Source: Kineothrix alysoides
Lineage (GTDB): Bacteria; Bacillota; Clostridia; Lachnospirales; Lachnospiraceae
NCBI RefSeq assembly: GCF_000732725.1
Contig: NZ_JPNB01000001.1
Span: forward strand, 2,046,001-2,110,000
DNA: 64,000 bases
Reading direction: 5' to 3'
Under the pieces are notes generated by a model that was not told where the DNA came from, searched no databases, and saw nothing but the letters and a program-made list of their open reading frames with translations. The translations under genes were made by a program, and so were the position numbers. Shown here one piece after another: positions 5,629-64,000 of this stretch; within the stretch, counting starts at the first letter, position 1, and every line of letters begins with the position of its first letter.

Positions 5629-8019
5629 CTATGCGATGACTGCCTCCCGGCTGTCCACATATTTTTTAATGTTGGATGCGTTTACGTATTTCTTATATTC
5701 ATCTCCGTTTGTTACTACCAGTGTAGGAGCCTGCATAATACCATATCTGCCGGCAAGTTCCATATTCTCCTCCGCATCGATAAGAACATACTTATCTTCT
5801 TTCAGATATTCCTTCGCCAATTTGCAATTAGGGCAAGTCTTCGTGGTAAAAAGATATTTTACCGCTTCCGGCTTCTCTACTTTTACGCTGATTTCCTTCT
5901 CATAATTCGACAGAGTGACCATACGGGTCATAGGTTTTTTTAAGGAAGACTGTGCTACACTGTATTCTGTTCTGTTGGCATATTCCTGAAGCTTGCCGTC
6001 ATTCCAGTTCTGTACCGGTCTGTAATATCCCGTAATACGGCTGTAGACCTCCGTAACCTTTCCGCAGTGAGGACACGCCTTCTGCTCCCCTGCCAGATAA
6101 CCGTGTTCACGGCAGATTGAGTAGGTAGGCGATAGTGTATAATAGGGCAGCTTGTAATTATCGGCAACTGTTTTTACCAATTTCGCCGCCGCCTTCCAGT
6201 CAGGAAGCTTCTCACCGAGGAACGCGTGAAATACGGTTCCTGATGTATATAAGGTCTGTAAGTCGTCCTGTATGTCCAAAGCATCGAAGACATCTATGGT
6301 ATAATCTACCGGCAGATGGGAGGAATTTGTATAATAAGGCGTATCCCCCGGATTGCCTGCAGTCTTGATCGCGGGCCATTTCTTCTTATCGTGCTTCGCC
6401 AGACGGTATGTGGTGCTTTCTGCCGGAGTTGCCTCCAGATTATACAAATCACCATATTTTTCCTGATAATCGGAAAGTCTGTTTCTCATGTGATTCAATA
6501 CTTCTTTGGTAAATTCCTGCGTTCCCTTATTGCTCATGTCCGCCCGCAGCCAGTTCGCATTCAATCCCACCTCATTCATGCCGATAAGGCCGATGGTGGA
6601 AAAATGGTTCTCGAAACTGCCAAGATAACGCTTGGTATAAGGATAAAGTCCTTCTTCCAACAGTCTGGAAATAACTCCTCTTTTTATCTTAAGAGATCTG
6701 GCCGCAATATCCATCATCTTATTCAGACGCTTGTAGAAGTCGTCCTTATTGGATGACAGATAAGCGATTCTTGGCATATTGATCGTCACTACGCCCACGC
6801 TTCCCGTACTTTCGCCCGAACCAAAAAAGCCGCCTGTCTTCTTGCGAAGCTCTCTTAAGTCCAGACGGAGGCGGCAGCACATACTGCGCACATCGCTGGG
6901 CTCCATATCGGAATTGATATAGTTGGAAAAATAAGGTGTCCCATATTTGGAGGTCATCTCGAATAAGAGTCTGTTGTTCTCCGTATCGGACCAATCGAAA
7001 TCCCGGGTAATGGAATAAGTCGGTATCGGATACTGGAAACCTCTTCCATTGGCATCGCCCTCAATCATCGTCTCGATAAATGCCTTGTTAATCATATCCA
7101 TTTCTTTTTTGCAGTCTTTATATTTGAAATTCACCTCTTTGCCGCCTATGATTGCCGGAAGCTCTGCTAAATCCTCCGGTACCGTCCAATCCAGCGTGAT
7201 ATTGGAAAAGGGAGCCTGTGTTCCCCAGCGGCTTGGTGTATTAACGCCATAAATAAATGCCTCGATGCATTTCTTCACTTCCGGATAAGTCAGATTATCT
7301 GCCTTGACAAAGGGAGCCAAATAAGTATCGAAGGAAGAAAATGCCTGTGCGCCTGCCCATTCATTCTGCATAATGCCCAAAAAGTTTACCATCTGGTTAC
7401 ATAATACGGAAAGATGTGATGCCGGGGCAGAAGTAATCTTGCCGGTAATGCCTCCCAGCCCTTCCTGAATAAGCTGCTTGAGAGACCAGCCCGCACAATA
7501 GCCGGTAAGCATGGACAAATCATGGATATGCAAATCCGCATTTCTATGAGCCTCTCCGATTTCCTGATCGTATATCTCAGAAAGCCAGTAATTAGCCGTT
7601 ACCGCGCCGGAATTGCTAAGAATAAGGCCACCCACCGAATAAGTTACGGTAGAGTTCTCCTTTACCCGCCAGTCCTCTATCTTTACATAGCTGTTGACTA
7701 CATCCTTATAATCGAGAATGGTAGATTTCATATTGCGCATCTTTTCTCTCTGCTTGCGGTAGAGAATAAACGCTTTGGCAGCCTCCGCATATCCGGTCTG
7801 CTCCAAGACTCTTTCCACGCTATCCTGAATGTCTTCCACATTCACCCTGTCTTCCTTCACTCTATTCTGAAACTCGGACGTAACGCGAAGCGCCAGCAAA
7901 TCAATAATATCATTGTTGTACTGCATGTCCGTAGCGTTGAAAGCCTTCATGATAGCATCACTAATCTTTGCCAATGTAAAATCTGTAGTTTCTCCATCCC
8001 TTTTAATTACTTGAAACAT
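5629..8019 (-). CDS. nrdD: Anaerobic ribonucleoside-triphosphate reductase fused to a thioredoxin/glutaredoxin-like domain
   Basis: Class III glycyl-radical enzyme reducing ribonucleoside triphosphates to dNTPs without oxygen. The N-terminus (about 1-95) is an ATP-cone (FQVIKRDGETTDFTLAKI). The catalytic barrel contains DLHIHDL, SHLSVLCNQM, NITLDW and NEVGLN. The zinc-binding CREHGYL...CPHCG lies at about 650-670, and the glycyl-radical loop is ITGYYRPVQNWNDG. Unlike a plain NrdD, the last 75 residues form a redox domain with YLFTTKTCPNCKLAKEYL (CPNC) and the cis-Pro loop MQAPTLVV, suggesting a built-in electron donor. Length is 796 residues. GGAGG precedes the start. No nrdG activase gene is adjacent. 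Confidence 0.93.
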   Translation of the reverse strand: MFQVIKRDGETTDFTLAKISDAIMKAFNATDMQYNNDIIDLLALRVTSEFQNRVKEDRVNVEDIQDSVERVLEQTGYAEAAKAFILYRKQREKMRNMKSTILDYKDVVNSYVKIEDWRVKENSTVTYSVGGLILSNSGAVTANYWLSEIYDQEIGEAHRNADLHIHDLSMLTGYCAGWSLKQLIQEGLGGITGKITSAPASHLSVLCNQMVNFLGIMQNEWAGAQAFSSFDTYLAPFVKADNLTYPEVKKCIEAFIYGVNTPSRWGTQAPFSNITLDWTVPEDLAELPAIIGGKEVNFKYKDCKKEMDMINKAFIETMIEGDANGRGFQYPIPTYSITRDFDWSDTENNRLLFEMTSKYGTPYFSNYINSDMEPSDVRSMCCRLRLDLRELRKKTGGFFGSGESTGSVGVVTINMPRIAYLSSNKDDFYKRLNKMMDIAARSLKIKRGVISRLLEEGLYPYTKRYLGSFENHFSTIGLIGMNEVGLNANWLRADMSNKGTQEFTKEVLNHMRNRLSDYQEKYGDLYNLEATPAESTTYRLAKHDKKKWPAIKTAGNPGDTPYYTNSSHLPVDYTIDVFDALDIQDDLQTLYTSGTVFHAFLGEKLPDWKAAAKLVKTVADNYKLPYYTLSPTYSICREHGYLAGEQKACPHCGKVTEVYSRITGYYRPVQNWNDGKLQEYANRTEYSVAQSSLKKPMTRMVTLSNYEKEISVKVEKPEAVKYLFTTKTCPNCKLAKEYLKEDKYVLIDAEENMELAGRYGIMQAPTLVVTNGDEYKKYVNASNIKKYVDSREAVIA

Positions 8020-51024: not shown

Positions 51025-51357
51025 CCTCCTTCAAAATTTCATGCTTTCTCAAACATAAGCAGACAGAAAACTCTTTTCTCTATCCAATCCTATGATAGCA
51101 TATGAAACTTCTCTCCTCTACCAACCGGTTATATACAAAAAGGCAACCTTAAGTTGCCCCGCGTCTCTATATCCGGTTCATCCGCCTGCATCCGACCATT
51201 CATCCATTCATCCATTCATCCATTCATCCATTCATCCATTCATCCAAACAGCAATTTTATACAATACACTCTATCCGAATAAGAGTATCTTTATTACATT
51301 AAAGTTTATGCCTGCATTAACAAAACGGCAGATAATGAGAAAGGATTGATTATTATT
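51025..51357. other. Divergent intergenic region with tandem octamers
   Basis: It carries the promoter region of the XRE gene and the upstream region of the cupin gene, with the ATTCATCC array at 51198-51245. No gene is supported; a frame running through the octamers is composed of the repeat itself. Confidence 0.5.
51198..51245. repeat. Tandem octamer ATTCATCC, six perfect units
   Basis: Six exact copies of an 8-bp unit in a row, flanked by partial units. They lie 113 bp before the cupin start and 183 bp from the XRE start. Unit length is not a multiple of three and the array is between promoters, so slippage could change spacing of regulatory elements. Confidence 0.85.
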
Positions 51358-56558: not shown

Positions 56559-57124
56559 AGCAACATCTCCTTTATTTGTTTTACTATTCGCTCTGGTATA
56601 TTTTCATCTATGGGCATCATCTTACTATACATTCGAACTCCCTGATAAGAAAATACGATAACGTCATAGACAGCCTCTGCGTCCACCCGGCGAAATTCTC
56701 CGCGCTCCATACCATAGGCAATCAGCCTTTGCCACATCCTCTTGGAGGCACCATAGCGCATGAGTAAAGCGTTGTTTTCCCGTTTCTCTGCGGTATAATA
56801 CTCATAAATAGCGACACTAAGCGATGTCCCGCTGTCTTTCATCTCGCTTTTATAACGGGAAAGCACCTCCTCCAATATCCGGGTTGCCGGAACGCCATTT
56901 TCTATTCTGTCGGCAAATTCATCCTCTTGTTTTTGCATGAATTCGTTGATGATCTCCTCAAAAATCTCCTCTGTTCCCGGATAATGCCTGTATAAACCGC
57001 CTCTGCTTAGTTCTGCCTTCTCGCATATATCCTTCATCGTAACGGCTTTAAAGCCTTTTTCAGCAAAAAGACCGTAGGCGACTTTGCGTATGTGCTGCTT
57101 TGTCTCTTCTCCCTTTTTTCCCAT
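56555..57124 (-). CDS. TetR-family regulator of the phosphorylase gene
   Basis: A 189-residue regulator: TKQHIRKVAYGLFAEKGFKAVTMKDICEKAELSRGGLYRHYPGTEEIFEEII is its helix-turn-helix, followed by a helical ligand domain. It is the first gene of a two-gene unit with the phosphorylase. GGAGG lies upstream of the ATG. Two palindromes in its promoter point to autoregulation. Confidence 0.87.
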   Translation of the reverse strand: MGKKGEETKQHIRKVAYGLFAEKGFKAVTMKDICEKAELSRGGLYRHYPGTEEIFEEIINEFMQKQEDEFADRIENGVPATRILEEVLSRYKSEMKDSGTSLSVAIYEYYTAEKRENNALLMRYGASKRMWQRLIAYGMERGEFRRVDAEAVYDVIVFSYQGVRMYSKMMPIDENIPERIVKQIKEMLL

Positions 57125-57158
57125 GTTACCTCCGACGTTGTTTATGACAAATTATATT

Positions 57159-57211
57159 TGCGACACTATTGTCTCTTTTTATATTATGCGACATATGCGT
57201 CGCTTTGTCAA
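57159..57211 (-). promoter_or_regulatory. Promoter with two TetR-type palindromes
   Basis: On the minus strand -35 TTGACA (57206-57211), a 17-bp spacer and -10 CATAAT (57183-57188). Two sites share the pattern GxGAC-N6-GTCxC: GCGACGCATATGTCGCA (57187-57203) within the spacer, and GAGACAATAGTGTCGCA (57159-57175) downstream. Confidence 0.62.
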
Positions 57212-57415
57212 GCATAAACTTTGCATTTAAATTCACTCTGCGAAGCAGAAATCACCTCTTGAATCACATGCTTACGCTGCTTAACAAAAAGCGTTAAACT
57301 ATCGTATGAACAGTAACAGATATACTATTGTAAATAAGGTATCTCATTTTGTAACCAGGTAGGAATTTGTTGAAAAATAATCCTTCAGCAGATATGATAT
57401 ATACGGAGGAATGAA

Positions 57416-57862
57416 ATGAAACTGATCGTAAAAGAAAATCGTGAAAAAGAACTGACTGTAACAGTAGAATACCCGGAACAAAATAATCAGGTATTACGAA
57501 TTATCAATAAAATGAAATCCGAAGGAAAATTCTTGATAGGAAACGAAAGCGGACGCAGCTATAAAGTCCTAATACCAGAAATTTATTATATAGAAAGTAT
57601 AGATAAGCGTACTTTCGTTTATACCAAAGATGCGGTGTTCAGAACCGATAAGCGTCTCTATCAACTTGAAAAAGAACTGAAAGAATATAGCTTTGTCAAA
57701 GTAAGCAGAAATTGTCTGCTTAATGCAGGTGAGCTCACACATTTGGAAGCTCTGACGAACAGCCGGTTAGAAGCAAATCTTACCAATGGTGAAAAAATAA
57801 TTATATCGAGGACATATATTCCAGAAATAAAAAAAGTTGTTTTTAGGGGGGATTTGATATGA
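57416..57862 (+). CDS. LytTR-type DNA-binding regulator (second pair)
   Basis: A 148-residue protein without receiver domain. Its LytTR domain reads RSYKVLIPEIYYIESIDKRTFVYTKDAVFRTDKRLYQLEKELKEYSFVKVSRNCLLNAGELTHLEALTNSRLEANLTNGEKIIISRTYIPEIKK. It has the same layout as the protein at 47563-48000. It overlaps the DUF3021 gene by four bases. The three-gene unit (57416-59101) is visibly more AT-rich than its neighbours, which may mean recent transfer. Confidence 0.86.
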   Translation: MKLIVKENREKELTVTVEYPEQNNQVLRIINKMKSEGKFLIGNESGRSYKVLIPEIYYIESIDKRTFVYTKDAVFRTDKRLYQLEKELKEYSFVKVSRNCLLNAGELTHLEALTNSRLEANLTNGEKIIISRTYIPEIKKVVFRGDLI

Positions 57863-58269
57863 AAAAATATATACAAAGCTCATTGCTATTGTCATCGATA
57901 ATCATTATTGTTGTAACCTTTATATCCTTTTTGTGTTTTGACTATACGCAGGACATGAAATTTATTTTTCAAATCGTGCTCATAGCATTTCTCGGTATGG
58001 CTGTCCATTATGCTGTAGCTTATATTTTTTATGATAGCTTTCTTAAGGAACTTATATGTGAGTACGTTGTTATTGAAATAACCGTTCTTATTGTCGGATG
58101 CATTAACGGTTGGTTCATACGGTCGAATTGGTGGATGTCATTTATATATATTACACCGATTTTTCTATTGGCCTATCTATTAGGAATAACTCATATAAAA
58201 AAAGAAATTCTATCCATAAACAAAAAACTTACGGAGAAAACAGAGGTGCCCGATGAAGAAAATAAATGA
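57859..58269 (+). CDS. DUF3021-family membrane protein (second pair)
   Basis: A 136-residue protein with four hydrophobic segments (SSLLLSSIIIIVVTFISFLCF, FQIVLIAFLGMAVHYAVAYIF, YVVIEITVLIVGCIN, MSFIYITPIFLLAYLLG). DUF3021 members accompany LytTR regulators. It overlaps both neighbours (4 bp and 17 bp), so the three genes are one operon. Confidence 0.8.
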   Translation: MKKYIQSSLLLSSIIIIVVTFISFLCFDYTQDMKFIFQIVLIAFLGMAVHYAVAYIFYDSFLKELICEYVVIEITVLIVGCINGWFIRSNWWMSFIYITPIFLLAYLLGITHIKKEILSINKKLTEKTEVPDEENK

Positions 58270-59101
58270 TAGTGAAAGAAATATATATCCCTTTTTTATC
58301 ATAACTTTGTTATGGACATGGGGGATGGGCTTTTCTCCTGTCATACTGGGATTGCAAGGGACGCCGCTGGGGACCTTTTTGTTTTACTTCGGCGGCGGTG
58401 CTCCTTCTGTTGTTGGGCTTTTCTTCGTATTTTTTACCTATTCCAAAGAGAAGAGAAGAAATTATTTTTATAGATGCTTCAATTTTAAACAAATGGGACT
58501 TAAATGCTTATTCGCTTTGCTGCTGTTTTTTTCTATCATTGCAATAATAGGAATATTTATTGGTATTTCTTTTTTTCATTCTCCGATACCGGAAATGACA
58601 TTCATAAAAATGCTTATTAAAAGGCCATATATACTGCCGCTTATCATATTTATAAGCATTATTTCCGGCCCTCTGAACGAAGAATTCGGCTGGCGGGGCT
58701 TTGCTCTCGATATACTATTAAAAAAGTGGGGGTTTTGGAGTGCGTCTGCAATCTTAGGTTTCATTTGGGCCATTTGGCATTTGCCATGGTACTTTATGCC
58801 GGGGCAGGCACAATATGATTTATTGCAAAGATCATTATTCGATGCTTTCTTATTTATTCCATCCACCATGCTTTTCAGCTTTGTTGTAAGCTTCGTATAT
58901 ATCAAAACCAACCGAAGTGTGTTAGCCGGTGCAATTACTCATATGCTGAGCAACCTGATTACCAGTCAGCTTCTTGCACCCTGCACGGTTGAAATGAGTA
59001 CAGTCATCCGATATACAAGTATGTTTTTTTGTACAGTAATTATCGTTTATAGTATTGTTTCCAAAAACTTCAAAAAAGAGCTTGCCCAAATACAATTTTA
59101 A
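58253..59101 (+). CDS. CPBP-family intramembrane metalloprotease
   Basis: A 282-residue membrane protease of the CAAX/Abi (CPBP) family with seven or eight hydrophobic segments. The conserved motifs are GPLNEEFGWRGFALDILLKKW (EExxxR, catalytic Glu pair) near residue 140, FIWAIWHLPWYF (His ligand) near residue 163 and TNRSVLAGAITHMLSN (His) near residue 222. Such proteases cleave signal peptides or serve in peptide immunity and maturation. The ATG lies inside the DUF3021 gene. It converges with the radical SAM gene, only 75 bp away, so a role in the neighbouring peptide locus is possible but unproven. Confidence 0.85.
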   Translation: MKKINDSERNIYPFFIITLLWTWGMGFSPVILGLQGTPLGTFLFYFGGGAPSVVGLFFVFFTYSKEKRRNYFYRCFNFKQMGLKCLFALLLFFSIIAIIGIFIGISFFHSPIPEMTFIKMLIKRPYILPLIIFISIISGPLNEEFGWRGFALDILLKKWGFWSASAILGFIWAIWHLPWYFMPGQAQYDLLQRSLFDAFLFIPSTMLFSFVVSFVYIKTNRSVLAGAITHMLSNLITSQLLAPCTVEMSTVIRYTSMFFCTVIIVYSIVSKNFKKELAQIQF

Positions 59102-59129
59102 GAAGTTCTTTTAACCCTCTATTACATAA

Positions 59130-59172
59130 AAACTGCGAGAAGACCGGTGAACGCGTCTGTCTTCCCGCAGTT
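59130..59172. terminator. Bidirectional terminator between CPBP and radical SAM genes
   Basis: AACTGCG(A)GAAGAC and GTCTTCCCGCAGTT pair with one mismatch around a 14-base loop. Flanks are TTTACTTATTT on the plus side and TTTTTATG on the minus side. Both convergent genes end here. Confidence 0.7.
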
Positions 59173-59175
59173 TAC

Positions 59176-60603
59176 TTATTTATCGATACACTCCATCATC
59201 CTCAGATCTTCCATCAAATCCACATCCGCATACGAGGTGAACGCCACGGCTTTTCTCATTTTAACAAGTGCTTCCTCTTTGTTGCCAAGGCGGAAAACAG
59301 CAATTGCATATCCCCGAAGCGCATAAGCATCTTCTTCATTCATCGCGATTGCCTTTTTATTATCCTCTTTGCAAATTTCATAATTGCCGCACATGTACTC
59401 CGCGTATGCCTTTGCCTTTAATATCTGTGCATTCTTACTATCTAACTTTGCTGCCCTTCTCAGCGCGAACGCTGCCTCTGAAAAGACCTCCTGTTTTATC
59501 AAGCCTTCTCCTAACAGGAGCAGTTCCTTCGCATCTTCATAAGACGAATATTTCGCTTCTATCTTCTCCATTTCCAGATGATAGGCACAGTATTGATTTT
59601 CGGAATAAATATCTCCGTTCATCGTTAGTCTCGTATTGGGGCAGCCCCCCAGGCATTTGCTGCCATAGGAACAGGTTTTGCAGGAGCCCTCCAATTTATC
59701 TTTTGTAAAGTTCCTCCGCCATGAAAAAGCATTTTCATCTTCCCATATTTCCCTGAGCGGACGTTCCCGCAAGCTTCCTTCAATATATTCCCTGTTTCGA
59801 ATAGAGGTGCATCCCAGGATTTCTCCGTTATGTAATATTCCAAATCCCCTTATACCCGCATTACAGCCATCCCACATCGATACCATATCCGTCTCGTAAG
59901 AAATCTTTTTTACTTCCATTTCTTTCTTCGTATAGTAGCCGATGCAGTCTGCCGGGTAAATCTTGATCCTACCCTCTTTAGCCGTATCATAGCAAAAATC
60001 AATGATATCCTTTACCTGCTCCGGTTCGAGAAGCCAGTCCGGCCTCTCCTTCAGATTACCCATCGGCAAGCCTAACTGTACCTGCCATGTATCCACGCCC
60101 ATCCGTATCAGTTCTTCCTTCAGAGAGCTTAGAATATCCATATTCTGCTTCGTTATTGTCGTGACCGCGCCGGTCTTTATTTTCAGTTCCTTCAAATTCC
60201 CAAAGGCCTGCTCGGCGTGCTCAAATGCTCCCTTCATTCGAATCTTATCATGAATCTCTTTCGTTCCATCAATACTGATGGCAACCGTGCCTACTCCGCT
60301 TTCTTTTAGCGTACAAGCCATGTCCATATCCAAAAGCCATCCGTTAGTAATGATATTTACAGAGACACCCCGCTCCGATAAGCGCCTGATCAGTGAGGTA
60401 ATATCCTTTCTCGTAAGAGGCTCTCCTCCTGATAGTGTAACCCATTTCAGTCCCATGTCGGCAATCTGCCCGCAAACGTCCAACGCCTCGTCCGTATTCA
60501 ATTCGTCCGGCAGCGGATTCGTACAAGAAGACCCGCAATGTCCGCATCTCATGTTGCATCCCATCGTCACTTCCCATACACAGGTAATCGGTCGATAATC
60601 CAT
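59176..60603 (-). CDS. Radical SAM/SPASM peptide-modifying enzyme with C-terminal TPR region
   Basis: A 475-residue iron-sulfur enzyme. The [4Fe-4S] SAM-binding motif CNMRCGHC (Cys16, 20, 23) and the downstream GGEP (LSGGEPLTRKD) are intact. The SPASM region contains WDGCNAGIRGFGILHNGEILGCTS and CKTCSYGSKCLGGCPNTR then YCAYH, which would hold two auxiliary clusters. Residues about 360-475 are TPR-like (EAAFALRRAAKLDSKNAQ; ALRGYAIAVFRLGNKEEALVKMRKA) and may bind the substrate. SPASM enzymes install thioether or C-C crosslinks in ribosomal peptides. It starts 16 bp after the repeat-protein gene. The exact reaction is not inferable. Confidence 0.88.
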   Translation of the reverse strand: MDYRPITCVWEVTMGCNMRCGHCGSSCTNPLPDELNTDEALDVCGQIADMGLKWVTLSGGEPLTRKDITSLIRRLSERGVSVNIITNGWLLDMDMACTLKESGVGTVAISIDGTKEIHDKIRMKGAFEHAEQAFGNLKELKIKTGAVTTITKQNMDILSSLKEELIRMGVDTWQVQLGLPMGNLKERPDWLLEPEQVKDIIDFCYDTAKEGRIKIYPADCIGYYTKKEMEVKKISYETDMVSMWDGCNAGIRGFGILHNGEILGCTSIRNREYIEGSLRERPLREIWEDENAFSWRRNFTKDKLEGSCKTCSYGSKCLGGCPNTRLTMNGDIYSENQYCAYHLEMEKIEAKYSSYEDAKELLLLGEGLIKQEVFSEAAFALRRAAKLDSKNAQILKAKAYAEYMCGNYEICKEDNKKAIAMNEEDAYALRGYAIAVFRLGNKEEALVKMRKAVAFTSYADVDLMEDLRMMECIDK

Positions 60604-60618
60604 ATGTTCTCTTCCTCC

Positions 60619-61455
60619 TTAGCAATTGGGAAATCCGTAAGGTCTCGCATCTTTCGTCCACTCCATGCACGGATAGCCATATTTTAAATTTGCATCCTGT
60701 ACACCGCATGGATAGCCATACTTCAAATTCGCTTCCTGCACTCCGCAGGGGTAACCATACTTCAAATTCGTCATCTCCTGCACTCCGCAGGAATAACCAT
60801 ATTTCAGATTCGCTTCCTGCACTCCGCAGGGATATCCGTACTTCAAGTTCGCTTCCTGCACTCCGCAGGGATATCCATATTTCAAGTTCGCTTCCTGCAC
60901 TCCGCAGGGATATCCGTATTTCAAGTTCGCTTCCTTCGCTCCGCAAGAATAGCCATACATTAAGTTCGCTTCCTTCACTCCGCATGGATAGCCGTATTTC
61001 ACCGTTGCTTCAAGCTCATCGGCAGGATATCCGTACTTTGCATTCACAGCCTGTGCTTCGCAAGGATAACCGTACTTCATCACAGCCTCTCCGCCATACA
61101 CAAAGCCGTACGGCATCGCTGCATTCGCCGCATTTTCGCTGAACGTCACGAATTCCTCCGAGTCGCTTTGTACGATTCTCACCTTTAAGGTATATTCGTT
61201 TTCAACCTTCGTCAAATCGCTCAAACAGGCGAGTATAAATTTGATCTCCACATTCGGCTGCTCTCCCGATGTTGCCTGAAAATAAAATTTCTGGATAACC
61301 GGACCCATCCGTAAAGACGGTTCATTTTCCGTTCCCATGAGAACGATTCCCTCTGGCATGGAAGAAACACACCACCCATAATTTGTCGAACCTAACATCG
61401 ACTGAAGCGCCACTGTAAAAGCCTTTCCTTGCAATACTACAAATTCCTGTTCCAT
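60619..61455 (-). CDS. Candidate multi-core RiPP precursor with 13-residue KYGYPC repeats
   Basis: A 278-residue protein. Residues 1-113 form a predicted beta-rich leader domain (LQGKAFTVALQSMLGSTNYGWCVSSM; NVEIKFILACL; ENEYTLKVRIVQ), faintly like the chagasin/I42 inhibitor fold. Residues 127-270 hold eleven near-identical 13-residue units of type KYGYPCGVQEANL; the end ones are degenerate (KYGYPADELEATV) and one has a one-residue insertion. A final PYGFPNC closes it. Each unit has one Cys except one, and a K/M-Y-G motif. MEQEFVV is the start by GGGG spacing (open to 61533). It is cotranscribed with the radical SAM enzyme. Confidence 0.75.
   Translation of the reverse strand: MEQEFVVLQGKAFTVALQSMLGSTNYGWCVSSMPEGIVLMGTENEPSLRMGPVIQKFYFQATSGEQPNVEIKFILACLSDLTKVENEYTLKVRIVQSDSEEFVTFSENAANAAMPYGFVYGGEAVMKYGYPCEAQAVNAKYGYPADELEATVKYGYPCGVKEANLMYGYSCGAKEANLKYGYPCGVQEANLKYGYPCGVQEANLKYGYPCGVQEANLKYGYSCGVQEMTNLKYGYPCGVQEANLKYGYPCGVQDANLKYGYPCMEWTKDARPYGFPNC
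60646..61077 (-). repeat. Eleven tandem 39-bp coding repeats
   Basis: In-frame copies of a 39-bp unit with no gaps except one 3-bp insertion. The central three encode identical protein and differ at a few bases, so the array has expanded recently by slippage or unequal crossing. Unrelated frames on the other strands also look repetitive because of it. Confidence 0.9.
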
Positions 61456-61531
61456 TTTGCATATCCCCTTTCTCTGCTTCCCATATCGTATTTTCACTGT
61501 TTTGCCGGTAAAACTTCTACCAGTCCTTTTC

Positions 61532-61602
61532 ATTTTATCACAAATGGACCGGCACTCTATAGTTTGGCGCTAAAACACAATATTTTGGCTTTAAAAGTTG
61601 AA
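61532..61602. promoter_or_regulatory. Divergent control region with LytTR-type direct repeats
   Basis: TTTGGCGCTAAAA (61563-61575) and TTTGGCTTTAAAA (61584-61596) are direct repeats 21 bp apart, two helical turns, as AgrA/LytTR regulators use. Leftward, the precursor operon has an extended -10 TGATAAAAT (61532-61540, minus strand) with no good -35, typical of an activated promoter. Rightward, the regulator operon has -35 TTGAAA (61598-61603), a 17-bp spacer and -10 TATGAT (61621-61626). The repeats abut both. Confidence 0.6.
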
Positions 61603-61657
61603 AAATGATTTTTCCTATAGTATGATGTTATATAATAAACATAGGGGAACTTAACAT

Positions 61658-62392
61658 ATGAATATAGCGATTATTGATGACCTGAATACAGACAGGAAGA
61701 CCATTACGAAGCATCTGCATACATATTTCTCCAAACACTACTCCGGCATAGCGCTTTTTATTCATACCTTTGAAAGCGGTGAAGCCTTTTTACGCGTGTT
61801 CCAGCAGGATTCCTTCGATTTTATTTTTATAGACTATTACATGGACGGGCTGTCCGGGCTGGATACCGCGCGGGCTATCCGCGCCGTCGATTCCAGTGTT
61901 ATTTTAATTTTCACCACCGCCAGCAGAGACTATGCCGTAGACAGCTATAAGGTCAAGGCCTCAGGTTATCTGGTCAAACCTATTCTCTACGGAGACTTTT
62001 CGGAGATTCTCTCCCTGATAGATTTACATCAAATACGAAACAGACGCTTCATCGAGATTATAAACGGATATGAAAAAGTGAAGATTCTTCTGAAAGACAT
62101 TATATTCTGTGATATCTCAGGACACTACGTACAGATTCATACGGAAAGCCTCGGGCTGCAGCGCACTCGCATGACATTCTCGGAATTGGTTCGTTTGTTA
62201 AAAGCTTACCGCGAATTTCTCGTCTGTTACCGCGGGTGCCTTATCAATATGAATCAAGTCCATCATATCGACGATTTCACGTTCTTTATGAACGGAGGAG
62301 AGCGGATTCCTCTTCGCAAAAAGGAACAGCACGAGATTCTCGAGGCTTATTCCCGATTTCTGTTTGAGAAAGCGAGGGAACAATACTTATGA
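61658..62392 (+). CDS. LytTR-type (AgrA-like) response regulator
   Basis: A 244-residue regulator. The receiver (residues 1-120) has IAIIDDLNTDR, the phosphoacceptor FIDYYMDGLSG, and SGYLVKPIL. The LytTR DNA-binding domain (about 138-240) includes NGYEKVKILLKDIIFCDISGHYVQIHTESLGLQRTRMTFSELVRLLKAYREFLVCYRGCLINMNQVHHIDDFTFFMNGGERIPLRKKEQHEILEAYSRFL. It overlaps the kinase gene by four bases. Its direct-repeat binding pattern occurs in the shared promoter region with the RiPP precursor. Confidence 0.88.
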   Translation: MNIAIIDDLNTDRKTITKHLHTYFSKHYSGIALFIHTFESGEAFLRVFQQDSFDFIFIDYYMDGLSGLDTARAIRAVDSSVILIFTTASRDYAVDSYKVKASGYLVKPILYGDFSEILSLIDLHQIRNRRFIEIINGYEKVKILLKDIIFCDISGHYVQIHTESLGLQRTRMTFSELVRLLKAYREFLVCYRGCLINMNQVHHIDDFTFFMNGGERIPLRKKEQHEILEAYSRFLFEKAREQYL

Positions 62393-63711
62393 GTCTTTTT
62401 CGTCTGCTCGAAATATCGGTTTACCAGCTCTTTGATCTTTTCCCGAACCTTATATTGGCAATCGTCCCCTTCCGGGATTCCATGCGATTTTCCAAAAGAA
62501 ATACCACAATTATCGTTCTGGTTCTTTATGCTCTGCTGGTCTGCAGCAGAATACTCGCTCTTAAGGGCATTTCAGTTGCTGCGTTTATGACCACTCTATG
62601 GATCATTTTATATCTTTGCTTCTATATGATCTGCATACGCGCCCAGCTCACCAAGCTTCTTTTCGTTCTATTGACCGTTTTAAATTACGGAAGCTTTGTA
62701 GCAATTATTTACAGCCACTTCGCCTTCCAGCGGTTTCCTTTAGCCATAGCCAGACCGTATTCTTTTTTCTCCACCGGAATTCTTCTTTTGACCTACTCTG
62801 TCAGCTATCCTATCCTTTATCGGATGGTGAACCGCAAGCTTAAGATCCTCATCACATTCCCTGAGAACAACAAGTTCTGGCGTTACTTATGGCTTGTTCC
62901 TGCCACCTTCTGTCTTTCTTATTATTACAATCTGTATGCCAATGGGGGAATTATCTCTTTTTCTACCGAACTTAATAACGTCCTGTTTGCGGCATTTTTT
63001 AATTTAGGAGCACTCTTTGTTACCTATCTCGTCATGCATCTGCTGGGAGAAAGCAACGCTAACCTCAAGCTGAAAGCGGAGAACTATCAGCTGGGCATGC
63101 AGTCCATGCAGTATGAGAACTTAAAAGGACGCATGGAAGATGCCCGCAGGGCAAAACACGATTTGCGCCAGATCCTGGCAGTTGTTCAGTCTTATTTAAA
63201 GGACGATGACAAGGAGGGATTGTCGGAATACATGCACCGGTACGAGATATCTCTCCCTTCCGCTTCTCCCATTTCTTATTGCGGGGACTACGCGCTCAAT
63301 GCCCTTATCGTTTACTACGCAGACATGGCGGAGGCCAAACACATCTCCTTTGACGCAAAGGTGCAATATCCTGACAGTCTGGATATCACCGATACCGATG
63401 CCGCTGTTTTGTTTGGAAATCTTCTTGAAAATGCAATAGAAGCGTGCATACGCCAAACACAAGAGAGGCGCTTCATCTTGCTGCGCACGAAAGCAATACA
63501 AGGCATGCTGGTCATAACTTTGGATAATTCCTATTCGGGCTCTATAGAAAGGCTGGGAGATATTTTCCTTTCTTCCAAATCAAAAAGAGAAGGAATCGGA
63601 ACTTCTTCCATACAAAAAATAGCAAAAAAATATAACGGAACGGCACAATTTCACTTCGATGATACAAGTTTCCACGCATCGGTTATATTGAACACGCATA
63701 TACACTATTAA
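62389..63711 (+). CDS. GHKL (AgrC-like) sensor histidine kinase
   Basis: A 440-residue membrane sensor: about six hydrophobic segments in residues 1-220, a linker helix (MQSMQYENLKGRMEDARRAKHDLRQI with phosphoacceptor His) and a GHKL ATPase domain (LFGNLLENAIEACI; ITLDNSYSG; SKREGIGTSSIQKIAKKYNGT). This is the architecture of peptide-pheromone receptors of the AgrC/ComD type. It is coupled to the LytTR response regulator and could sense the neighbouring repeat-peptide product, which is inference. Confidence 0.86.
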   Translation: MSLFRLLEISVYQLFDLFPNLILAIVPFRDSMRFSKRNTTIIVLVLYALLVCSRILALKGISVAAFMTTLWIILYLCFYMICIRAQLTKLLFVLLTVLNYGSFVAIIYSHFAFQRFPLAIARPYSFFSTGILLLTYSVSYPILYRMVNRKLKILITFPENNKFWRYLWLVPATFCLSYYYNLYANGGIISFSTELNNVLFAAFFNLGALFVTYLVMHLLGESNANLKLKAENYQLGMQSMQYENLKGRMEDARRAKHDLRQILAVVQSYLKDDDKEGLSEYMHRYEISLPSASPISYCGDYALNALIVYYADMAEAKHISFDAKVQYPDSLDITDTDAAVLFGNLLENAIEACIRQTQERRFILLRTKAIQGMLVITLDNSYSGSIERLGDIFLSSKSKREGIGTSSIQKIAKKYNGTAQFHFDDTSFHASVILNTHIHY

Positions 63712-63816
63712 TGAGACAACGTTCTATATGTCTAAAGGAGGATTAGGTTGAAAAATAAAAGCTTTTTTCAACATCCTGATTTATACGTGTGCCAAAGCAC
63801 ACAGATAGGAGTCAAT

Positions 63817-64000
63817 ATGAATTATAATTTTAAAAAAGGTGATATTGTTGTTTTCAAAGCGGAGGACGACCCGCTTAGCAAAGCGATTGCATGGTTTACT
63901 AAGAGCGATGTCTCTCATGCCGCAATGGTTTACTCCGAGGATTCCATCGTAGAGATGGGTGCCGGCGGTATCGGCGTACACGAAATTGGGATATCGGAGG
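63817..64000 (+). CDS. YiiX-like permuted NlpC/P60 hydrolase, N-terminal part (runs off right edge)
   Basis: The visible 61 residues, MNYNFKKGDIVVFKAEDDPLSKAIAWFTKSDVSHAAMVYSEDSIVEMGAGGIGVHEIG, contain the GDIV-F and S-HAAMVY patterns of permuted papain-like hydrolases (YiiX/DUF830-type), where the His is catalytic. The frame is also open from a TTG at 63748 preceded by AAAGGAGG, which would add 23 residues; AGGAG five bases before the ATG favours 63817. It follows the kinase gene on the same strand by about 36-105 bp and may belong to its operon. Confidence 0.6.
   Translation, partial: MNYNFKKGDIVVFKAEDDPLSKAIAWFTKSDVSHAAMVYSEDSIVEMGAGGIGVHEIGISE

Follow-up and report, generated by a model that had tools for sequence, protein, structure and literature searches.

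The window analysed here is a 64,000-nucleotide (nt) stretch of the Kineothrix alysoides genome (contig NZ_JPNB01000001.1, positions 2,046,001 to 2,110,000 of the forward strand), and the system in question consists of two genes on its minus strand, one for a repetitive precursor protein and one, directly downstream, for a radical S-adenosylmethionine (SAM)/SPASM enzyme. A sequence-only reading of the window had placed both genes correctly. They almost certainly form a true pair of the kind that yields ribosomally synthesized and post-translationally modified peptides (RiPPs), and the features of precursor and enzyme together point to a spliceotide-like system. The pair comprises the following elements.

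60619..61455, minus strand: multi-site precursor protein of 278 amino acids (aa), an open reading frame (ORF) with homologous precursors at 40 of 80 enzyme loci.
61141..61455, minus strand: leader of the precursor (about residues 1-105), a predicted chagasin-type (I42) beta domain; Pfam PF09394 in relatives, alignment and profile, AlphaFold2 (AF2) model.
60646..61077, minus strand: array of eleven [K/M]YGY[P/S] units with more XYG sites on either side; Tandem Repeats Finder (TRF) and reading of the units.
59176..60603, minus strand: radical SAM/SPASM enzyme of 475 aa with a TPR-like tail, proposed to be of splicease type; Pfam, NCBIfam, invariant Cys, AF2, tree.
59130..59173, minus strand: terminator-like hairpin 3' of the enzyme gene, with 15-nt arms of 93% complementarity (-22.2 kcal/mol, z -5.0).

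The precursor gene lies upstream, and the 15-nt gap between the two genes contains an AGGAGG ribosome site. The ATG at 61533 was passed over as the precursor start in favour of 61455, since it is covered by a GATAAAAT -10-like box. An Rfam scan of positions 57000-64000 of the window gave no match.

Conservation of the precursor-enzyme pair

When 299 host-family genomes were searched with the precursor, true relatives turned up in four of them (the host's own, G189, G148 and G054), and the enzyme gene adjoins in each. Three further entries of the nine-genome match list (L005, L006 and L007) were other tandem-repeat ORFs and were rejected, and L008 and L009 from the same list were left out of the count of relatives; a scan of genome contigs with the precursor alone found no relative. 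An alignment of the four enzymes, used as the query, retrieved 460 relatives, the best 80 of which were kept as loci. A precursor with the same leader is present at 40 of these 80 (the I42 loci), always on the strand of the enzyme and in 38 cases at most 240 nt upstream of it, which bears out the co-conservation proposed earlier as a check on the pair; the two exceptions to this spacing, L042 and L047, come from one Spirochaetaceae bin. With the window counted, same-strand coupling within 240 nt holds at 39 of 41 loci, which are not independent, as L024, L041 and L092 are seed genomes and L025/L031 and L028/L030 are near copies. Both this coupling and the retention of the motif across unrelated leader types, described below, argue that the repeat protein is a substrate; that the genes are mere neighbours, or that the enzyme modifies something else, is very improbable.

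The leader profile has a sparse and scattered distribution, with matches in five of 397 host-family genomes (one of them weak) and none in the single other genome of the host genus sampled; the match in G358 has an E-value of 3.6e-4. Three loci (L022, L026 and L034) are labelled Fibrobacter or Bacteroides, yet they nest in Lachnospiraceae- and Clostridiales-like branches of an earlier tree, and the labels may be binning errors. That tree, which had very long outgroups and was weakly rooted, was not used for any claim about the enzyme family.

Repeat array and core motif

The array is beyond chance (TRF scores 405 and 431). It does contain eleven units, as the sequence-only reading held, and nine of the ten steps between their YGY segments measure 13 residues, the remaining one measuring 14; the exact sequence KYGYPCGVQEANL, which had been assigned to most units, occurs in just four of the eleven. 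Tyr-Gly-Tyr is constant in all eleven, with codons that differ synonymously, whereas the longer Tyr-Gly-Tyr-Pro-Cys segment claimed for each unit does not hold throughout, the Pro position being [P/S] and Cys missing from one unit; Met stands first in one unit. More XYG sites stand on either side of the array (PYGF, VYGG and a C-terminal PYGFPNC). The precursor also matches PF21403 (OTU1_UBXL) above the cut-off; the best-matching part, residues 162-183 of a 304-aa frame, lies inside the repeat, and the match was discarded as a repeat artefact.

Across 41 distinct precursors, the window included, the 5764 core residues contain 656 Tyr, 550 Gly and 642 Ala, a composition from which about 136 Tyr-Gly/Ala pairs are expected; 376 Y[G/A] sites were observed. 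The second place is Gly in 81% of them, the X position before Tyr is Lys in 57%, and Pro stands at +3 in 262 (70%). Y(G/A)xP is present in 39 of the 41 precursors, the exceptions being L064 (Y(G/A) without Pro) and L067; Desulfoluna-type cores read KYAAP or LYAAP. The constant core feature of the family is X-Tyr-(Gly/Ala)-x-Pro, with X usually Lys, and XY(G/A) is likely to be where the enzyme acts. The regular Cys, in comparison, is lineage-specific.

These counts bear on a thioether of the sactipeptide or ranthipeptide kind, formed from the regular Cys, for instance to the acidic residue of CGVQE or CGVQD (Cys-x3-Glu/Asp). The earlier reading had offered thioether or C-C crosslinks as options beside splicing at X-Tyr-Gly. 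Cys occupies +4 in 159 of the 376 sites, with D (27%) or E (10%) at +8, and the Cys-x3-Asp spacing is that of PapB, which is reported to link Cys to Asp or Glu. However, ten of the 41 precursors have no Cys at +4, and nine of them do have XY(G/A) sites; the ten include L041 (Lachnospiraceae), L042, L047, L055, L056, L057, L060 and L066, and the tenth, L067, has no in-frame site. Most of these precursors carry Cys elsewhere. Since Cys is lineage-specific and missing at +4 in ten precursors, thioether chemistry is argued against; it was rejected as a family-wide function and is very improbable, whereas splicing gains support from the motif and from the cores of relatives.

Two precursors have unusual arrangements. 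That of Faecalicatena faecalis (L024:175-1098) carries a second repeat type, NQPFLRNSCAPD, which lacks XYG and lies C-terminal to its KYGYP units. In Anaerobacterium (L067:7241-7854), the I42-leader ORF has no YG, and an overlapping ORF in another frame (7648-7854) is rich in VYG/IYG repeats, for which a frame change and a sequencing error are the alternatives.

The leader domain

By homology through Pfam matches in relatives and by predicted structure, the leader is a chagasin/I42-type domain, that is, it has the fold of a cysteine protease inhibitor; the folded leader domain recognised in the sequence-only reading can thus be given a type. PF09394 (chagasin family inhibitor I42) scored above its cut-off in eight of the ten relatives scanned out of the 40 (best E-value 5.9e-14), L021 giving no match and L088 one below the cut-off. 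The window precursor had no PF09394 match in the Pfam scan, and none to the PDB by sequence; its leader falls in the same alignment and profile as the PF09394-positive relatives.

The AF2 model of the leader has a predicted local distance difference test (pLDDT) score of 82.5, and its best Foldseek match in the PDB is the amoebic cysteine protease inhibitor EhICP2 (3m86; template modelling (TM) scores 0.62/0.70, E-value 4.4e-4). Amebosin (rank 3), chagasin (rank 10, 2nqd, and from rank 34, 2h7w) and PbICP-C (rank 33) follow in a ranking that has an adhesin at rank 2 and unrelated Ig-like beta folds interspersed, and in which only four matches reach E <= 0.001. We take EhICP2, amebosin and PbICP-C to be members of the chagasin family. 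The GSTxYGW segment of the leader resembles the NPTTGYxW loop of chagasin, and an APW(R/K) segment of more distant leaders resembles its RPW loop.

Partners with other leaders

The 40 of the best 80 enzyme loci without an I42 precursor served as a comparison set. Under a strict partner rule, formulated after the loci had been read, an XY(G/A) partner is present at 21 of them, against 0-2 of 40 in 20 ORF shuffles. Reading raised the count to 32 by accepting L043, L046, L049, L072, L078, L081, L089, L093 and L094 and, after extension to short ORFs (18-60 aa), also L079 (QPLYGIPPVEY) and L090 (PVMYGTGVRM). Many of these partners are short peptides in which an ELMEMTGG-type leader is followed by a LYGIxP or KYGVxP core, and NHLP-like leaders precede AYGVP, AYGVRP, VYGVP or MYAVRP at L072, L078, L081, L082, L089 and L094. 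PYGFP sites also occur beside the enzyme in SLH proteins (L044, L045) and in a dockerin protein (L048), the domains being assigned by Pfam.

The last three (L044:7032-7982, L045:6392-7183, L048:7406-8011) may be surface-bound spliced proteins. The L090 partner is a 35-aa ORF (L090:7797-7904) upstream of a tail-less Blautia caecimuris enzyme and has MYG as in natural PlpXY substrates; a near-identical ORF lies on an Agathobacter rectalis plasmid (L112, upstream of 3986).

Within the window no transporter is visible, as had been reported from the sequence. Long members (550-900 aa) of a large neighbour cluster of the ABC-transporter type (one cluster member was checked with Pfam) occur at 17 of the 40 non-I42 loci and at no I42 locus, five I42 loci having only members of 218-319 aa. 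This linkage hints that the export route of the short peptides is not used for I42 proteins.

The enzyme and its relatives

Pfam identifies Radical_SAM (7.7e-26) and SPASM (1.4e-8) domains in the enzyme. Its CxxxCxxC and SPASM cysteines are intact, as had been read from the sequence, and C16, C20, C23, C247, C265, C308, C311, C317, C321 and C339 are invariant in 39 aligned enzymes. The TPR tail noted at the same time is a helical repeat in the AF2 model (block-mean pLDDT at least 90), whereas its Pfam TPR matches stay below the curated cut-offs. The nearest solved fold is that of PqqE, and the peptide-crosslinking SuiB and SkfB are also near.

The proximity of SuiB and SkfB would suit a different Tyr-centred change on YGxP without excision, such as a C-C or C-O crosslink (a cyclophane-like Tyr-Gly-Tyr) or a beta-carbon modification, as would the second Tyr, found at +2 in 50% of sites. 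However, the family keeps Y, G/A and mostly P but varies at +2 (Y, A, V, F, I), and relatives have LYGxP-like cores that agree with the splicease tag. Such a change is therefore unlikely, and splicing at XY(G/A) is preferred.

Among NCBIfam models, the enzyme scores best against TIGR04103 (221 bits, cut-off 725), which we take to be the same family as IPR026482, and TIGR03913 (200 bits, cut-off 591.75). The score against the heme b synthase AhbD (196 bits) is so close to the first that sequence score alone hardly discriminates, and a tree with named outgroups was therefore built from 25 of the 81 family enzymes, hand-picked for spread, with six references and ten outgroups. In this tree, which has several long outgroup branches and whose two designated root rows do not lie on one side of a branch, a clade with support 98/95 unites TIGR04103 (Nostoc), GDL-type enzymes and the TPR-tailed family, with TIGR04133 also inside; AhbC, AhbD, TIGR04053, PqqE, MftC and L134 fall outside. 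The window enzyme clusters with enzymes of the 'nif11 maturase 3' type (TIGR04103). The Nostoc TIGR04103 gene is flanked by a Nif11 precursor ending in ALYGLPPELF and by a 71-aa gene.

The partners of the GDL-type enzymes are DUF1843 peptides (beside the maturases at L113:3055-3770, L114:3159-3872 and L143:787-1242, for example). An early XY(G/A) is present in six of eight (e.g. KPYGVAI, QVLYAAGI), and the GDL-type family may therefore also be spliceases; the other two, with MYMAT, read YM. The TIGR04133 maturase (L115:211-1287) is encoded beside a putative lipoprotein and sits on a long branch within the splicease-like clade. On a Tropicibacter plasmid (L142:1174-3982), a related radical SAM gene lies immediately 5' of genes for trypsin-like and M23 peptidases.

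Regulation and neighbouring genes

On the far side of the precursor from the enzyme lie the following features.

61563..61589, minus strand: direct repeat GCCAAAA-N14-GCCAAA with 21-bp spacing, 5' of a -10-like box; candidate binding site for the response regulator.
61658..62392, plus strand: LytTR response regulator, divergent (Pfam).
62389..63711, plus strand: GHKL (AgrC-like) sensor kinase (Pfam).
63748..64000, plus strand: YiiX/C92-like protein, possibly permuted papain-like (weak PF05708); the window end cuts the gene, which encodes 333 aa in L119.

Homologues of these neighbours were counted by tblastn (E 1e-3) at 40 I42 and 40 other loci, respectively: LytTR at 15 versus 1, GHKL at 14 versus 1, YiiX-like at 10 versus 0 and CPBP at 1 versus 0. 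The loci at which the regulator, the kinase and the YiiX-like protein recur form a Lachnospiraceae set. Twelve of the 15 regulators at I42 loci are directly divergent, and three (L034, L039, L041) are weak matches or located elsewhere. A looser form of the repeat, GCC(A/G)-N17-G(C/T)C, precedes a -10-like box upstream of the precursor at 13 of 13 loci with a directly divergent regulator, the window included; this pattern, formulated after the repeat had been seen, has a frequency of 0-6% at each locus in 300 shuffles. The strict repeat occurs once in the 4.68-Mb genome of the host (reversed control, zero), and with two mismatches allowed the window contains seven, one of them exact, against 3.0 expected. 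LytTR sites, those of AgrA for example, typically show a period of 21 bp. The adjacent regulator very likely controls expression of precursor and enzyme, presumably by activation.

Recurrence of the GHKL kinase and LytTR regulator, multi-copy repeats and a dedicated promoter repeat would also fit a regulated signal, in which the modified repeat is cut into short pheromone copies sensed by the AgrC-like kinase, a scheme compatible with splicing. Against it, neither a processing protease nor a long ABC exporter is linked within the window, and no regulator homologue was found at 25 of the 40 I42 loci (some contigs end nearby); we regard such a signal as rather improbable.

Both flanking genes had been pointed out in the sequence-only reading, and they have fared differently. 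The YiiX-like protein recurs; it matches PF05708 below the cut-off (15.0 versus 27 bits, E-value 0.026), its relative L099 has no C92 match, and His57 and Cys172 are invariant in 11 such sequences, their His-then-Cys order fitting peptidase C92. The CPBP protease was rejected as a partner, since it is present at one of 40 I42 loci and lies past the terminator-like hairpin; its gene is oriented opposite to that of the enzyme.

Elsewhere, a LytTR/DUF3021 pair lies near the locus (57416-58269 of the window), and a pair resembling it by appearance lies past the window end on the opposite strand (L119:1719-2611). Short tandem repeats in the window comprise CCATTCAT x 6.4 with 100% matches (51196-51246) and two copies of a 28-bp unit (57152-57206).

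Discussion

We propose that the LytTR/GHKL two-component system would switch on expression through its dedicated promoter repeat and that precursor and enzyme would then be co-produced. The TPR tail may hold the enzyme on the leader and so take the place of PlpY in substrate binding, the chagasin-type domain serving as docking domain and possibly as protease-binding domain too. At each X-Tyr-Gly site, mostly Lys-Tyr-Gly, the enzyme would excise a tyramine equivalent and rejoin the chain, giving up to eleven or more alpha-keto-beta-amino ketoamides, mainly Lys-derived, within one protein. A ketone beside an amide classically binds serine and cysteine proteases in a covalent, reversible manner, X taking the P1 position, and the product would most likely be a protease inhibitor with multiple warheads and a P1 Lys. 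A two-gene spliceotide-like system with excision of tyramine at XYG sites is, in our judgement of the sequences, the probable identity of the pair; protease inhibition as its function is a tentative proposal. The fullest version, in which a chagasin-fold binder of papain-like enzymes carries up to 14 Lys-P1 ketoamide warheads made by a PlpY-free radical SAM-TPR splicease, under its own two-component switch and with the permuted papain-like hydrolase as target or activator, is unlikely to hold in all its parts.

Several observations weigh against this interpretation. The natural PlpXY sites named in PMC10533398, MYG and LYG, do not include one with Lys at X, and about one-fifth of the sites in the precursor family read YA instead of YG. 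Unlike PlpXY, the enzyme has a TPR tail and no adjacent PlpY-like gene: the 15-nt gap leaves no room for a PlpY-type RiPP recognition element (RRE) gene, and no small gene recurs at I42 loci among the 25 neighbour clusters listed (the rest of the genome was not searched). The TIGR04103 score of the enzyme is far below the cut-off and close to its score against AhbD, and the tree has long outgroup branches. No clear XYG partner was found at eight of the 40 non-I42 loci, namely L033 and L063 (contig ends), L065, L087, L096 and L098 (nothing convincing), L086 (LYDIPP after an MTGG leader) and L100 (ambiguous reading). Concerning inhibition, the APW(R/K) segment, present in several more distant leaders, is missing from the aligned Lachnospiraceae leaders; inhibition by the leader itself is therefore doubtful, and the window domain may now serve mainly as a docking leader. 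No leader or processing protease linked to the pair was seen in the window, and the bacterium's own genome gave no match to the papain C1 and clostripain C11 families, so that a self-target is not evident; the target is more likely to be the YiiX-like protein or a protease that is foreign or comes from the host of the bacterium.

If the proposal is correct, the use of a protease-inhibitor fold as a leader would be explained, as docking and warhead chemistry would share one purpose, and ribosomal beta-amino acid chemistry would gain a large branch, many of whose members come from gut and rumen, going by record names. An enzyme that needs no partner and installs many ketoamides per protein would be possible, with uses in protein labelling and as a source of Lys-specific protease inhibitors. 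Furthermore, the linked sensor kinase and dedicated promoter make spliceotide function testable.

Comparison with known systems

A search of open-licence PMC papers for YGYP or chagasin/I42 repeat precursors with radical SAM enzymes found none. The system resembles ranthipeptides and sactipeptides (CteB, PapB, SkfB) in its SPASM radical SAM fold and in its many units with Cys and an acidic residue four on, and it differs from them in that Cys is not conserved over the precursor family. With the chagasin family I42 (PF09394) it shares the fold and, in distant members of the precursor family, sequence; the window domain, unlike that family, lacks a Pfam match and APW(R/K) and bears a repeat tail. 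TIGR04103 and TIGR03913 are the best NCBIfam models and of the same clade, and their precursors mostly contain XY(G/A), although those precursors are short and the window enzyme scores far below both cut-offs.

The closest comparison is with the spliceotide enzymes. In the papers concerned, PlpX is assigned to IPR026482 with PlpY as its RRE partner (PMC11002830), PlpXY tags contain PIRPLYGLPI and 939 predicted splicease systems are reported (PMC10533398), and spliceotide ketoamides are called protease inhibitors (PMC10373908, PMC11117315). The TPR-type branch may already be among the surveyed systems. The window system departs from PlpXY in its chagasin-type leader, where PlpXY has Nif11/NHLP, in its eleven-fold repeat with Lys at X and in its LytTR/GHKL neighbours. 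Its likeness to PlpX/PlpY of Pleurocapsa lies in the enzyme, a SPASM radical SAM protein that has CxxxCxxC and auxiliary Cys, and in a precursor with XYG core sites, which are present in 11 of 11 window units, become LYGLP-like in relatives and may number several per precursor; the LYGLPPELF end of the Nostoc TIGR04103 precursor likewise resembles the published PlpXY splicease tag.

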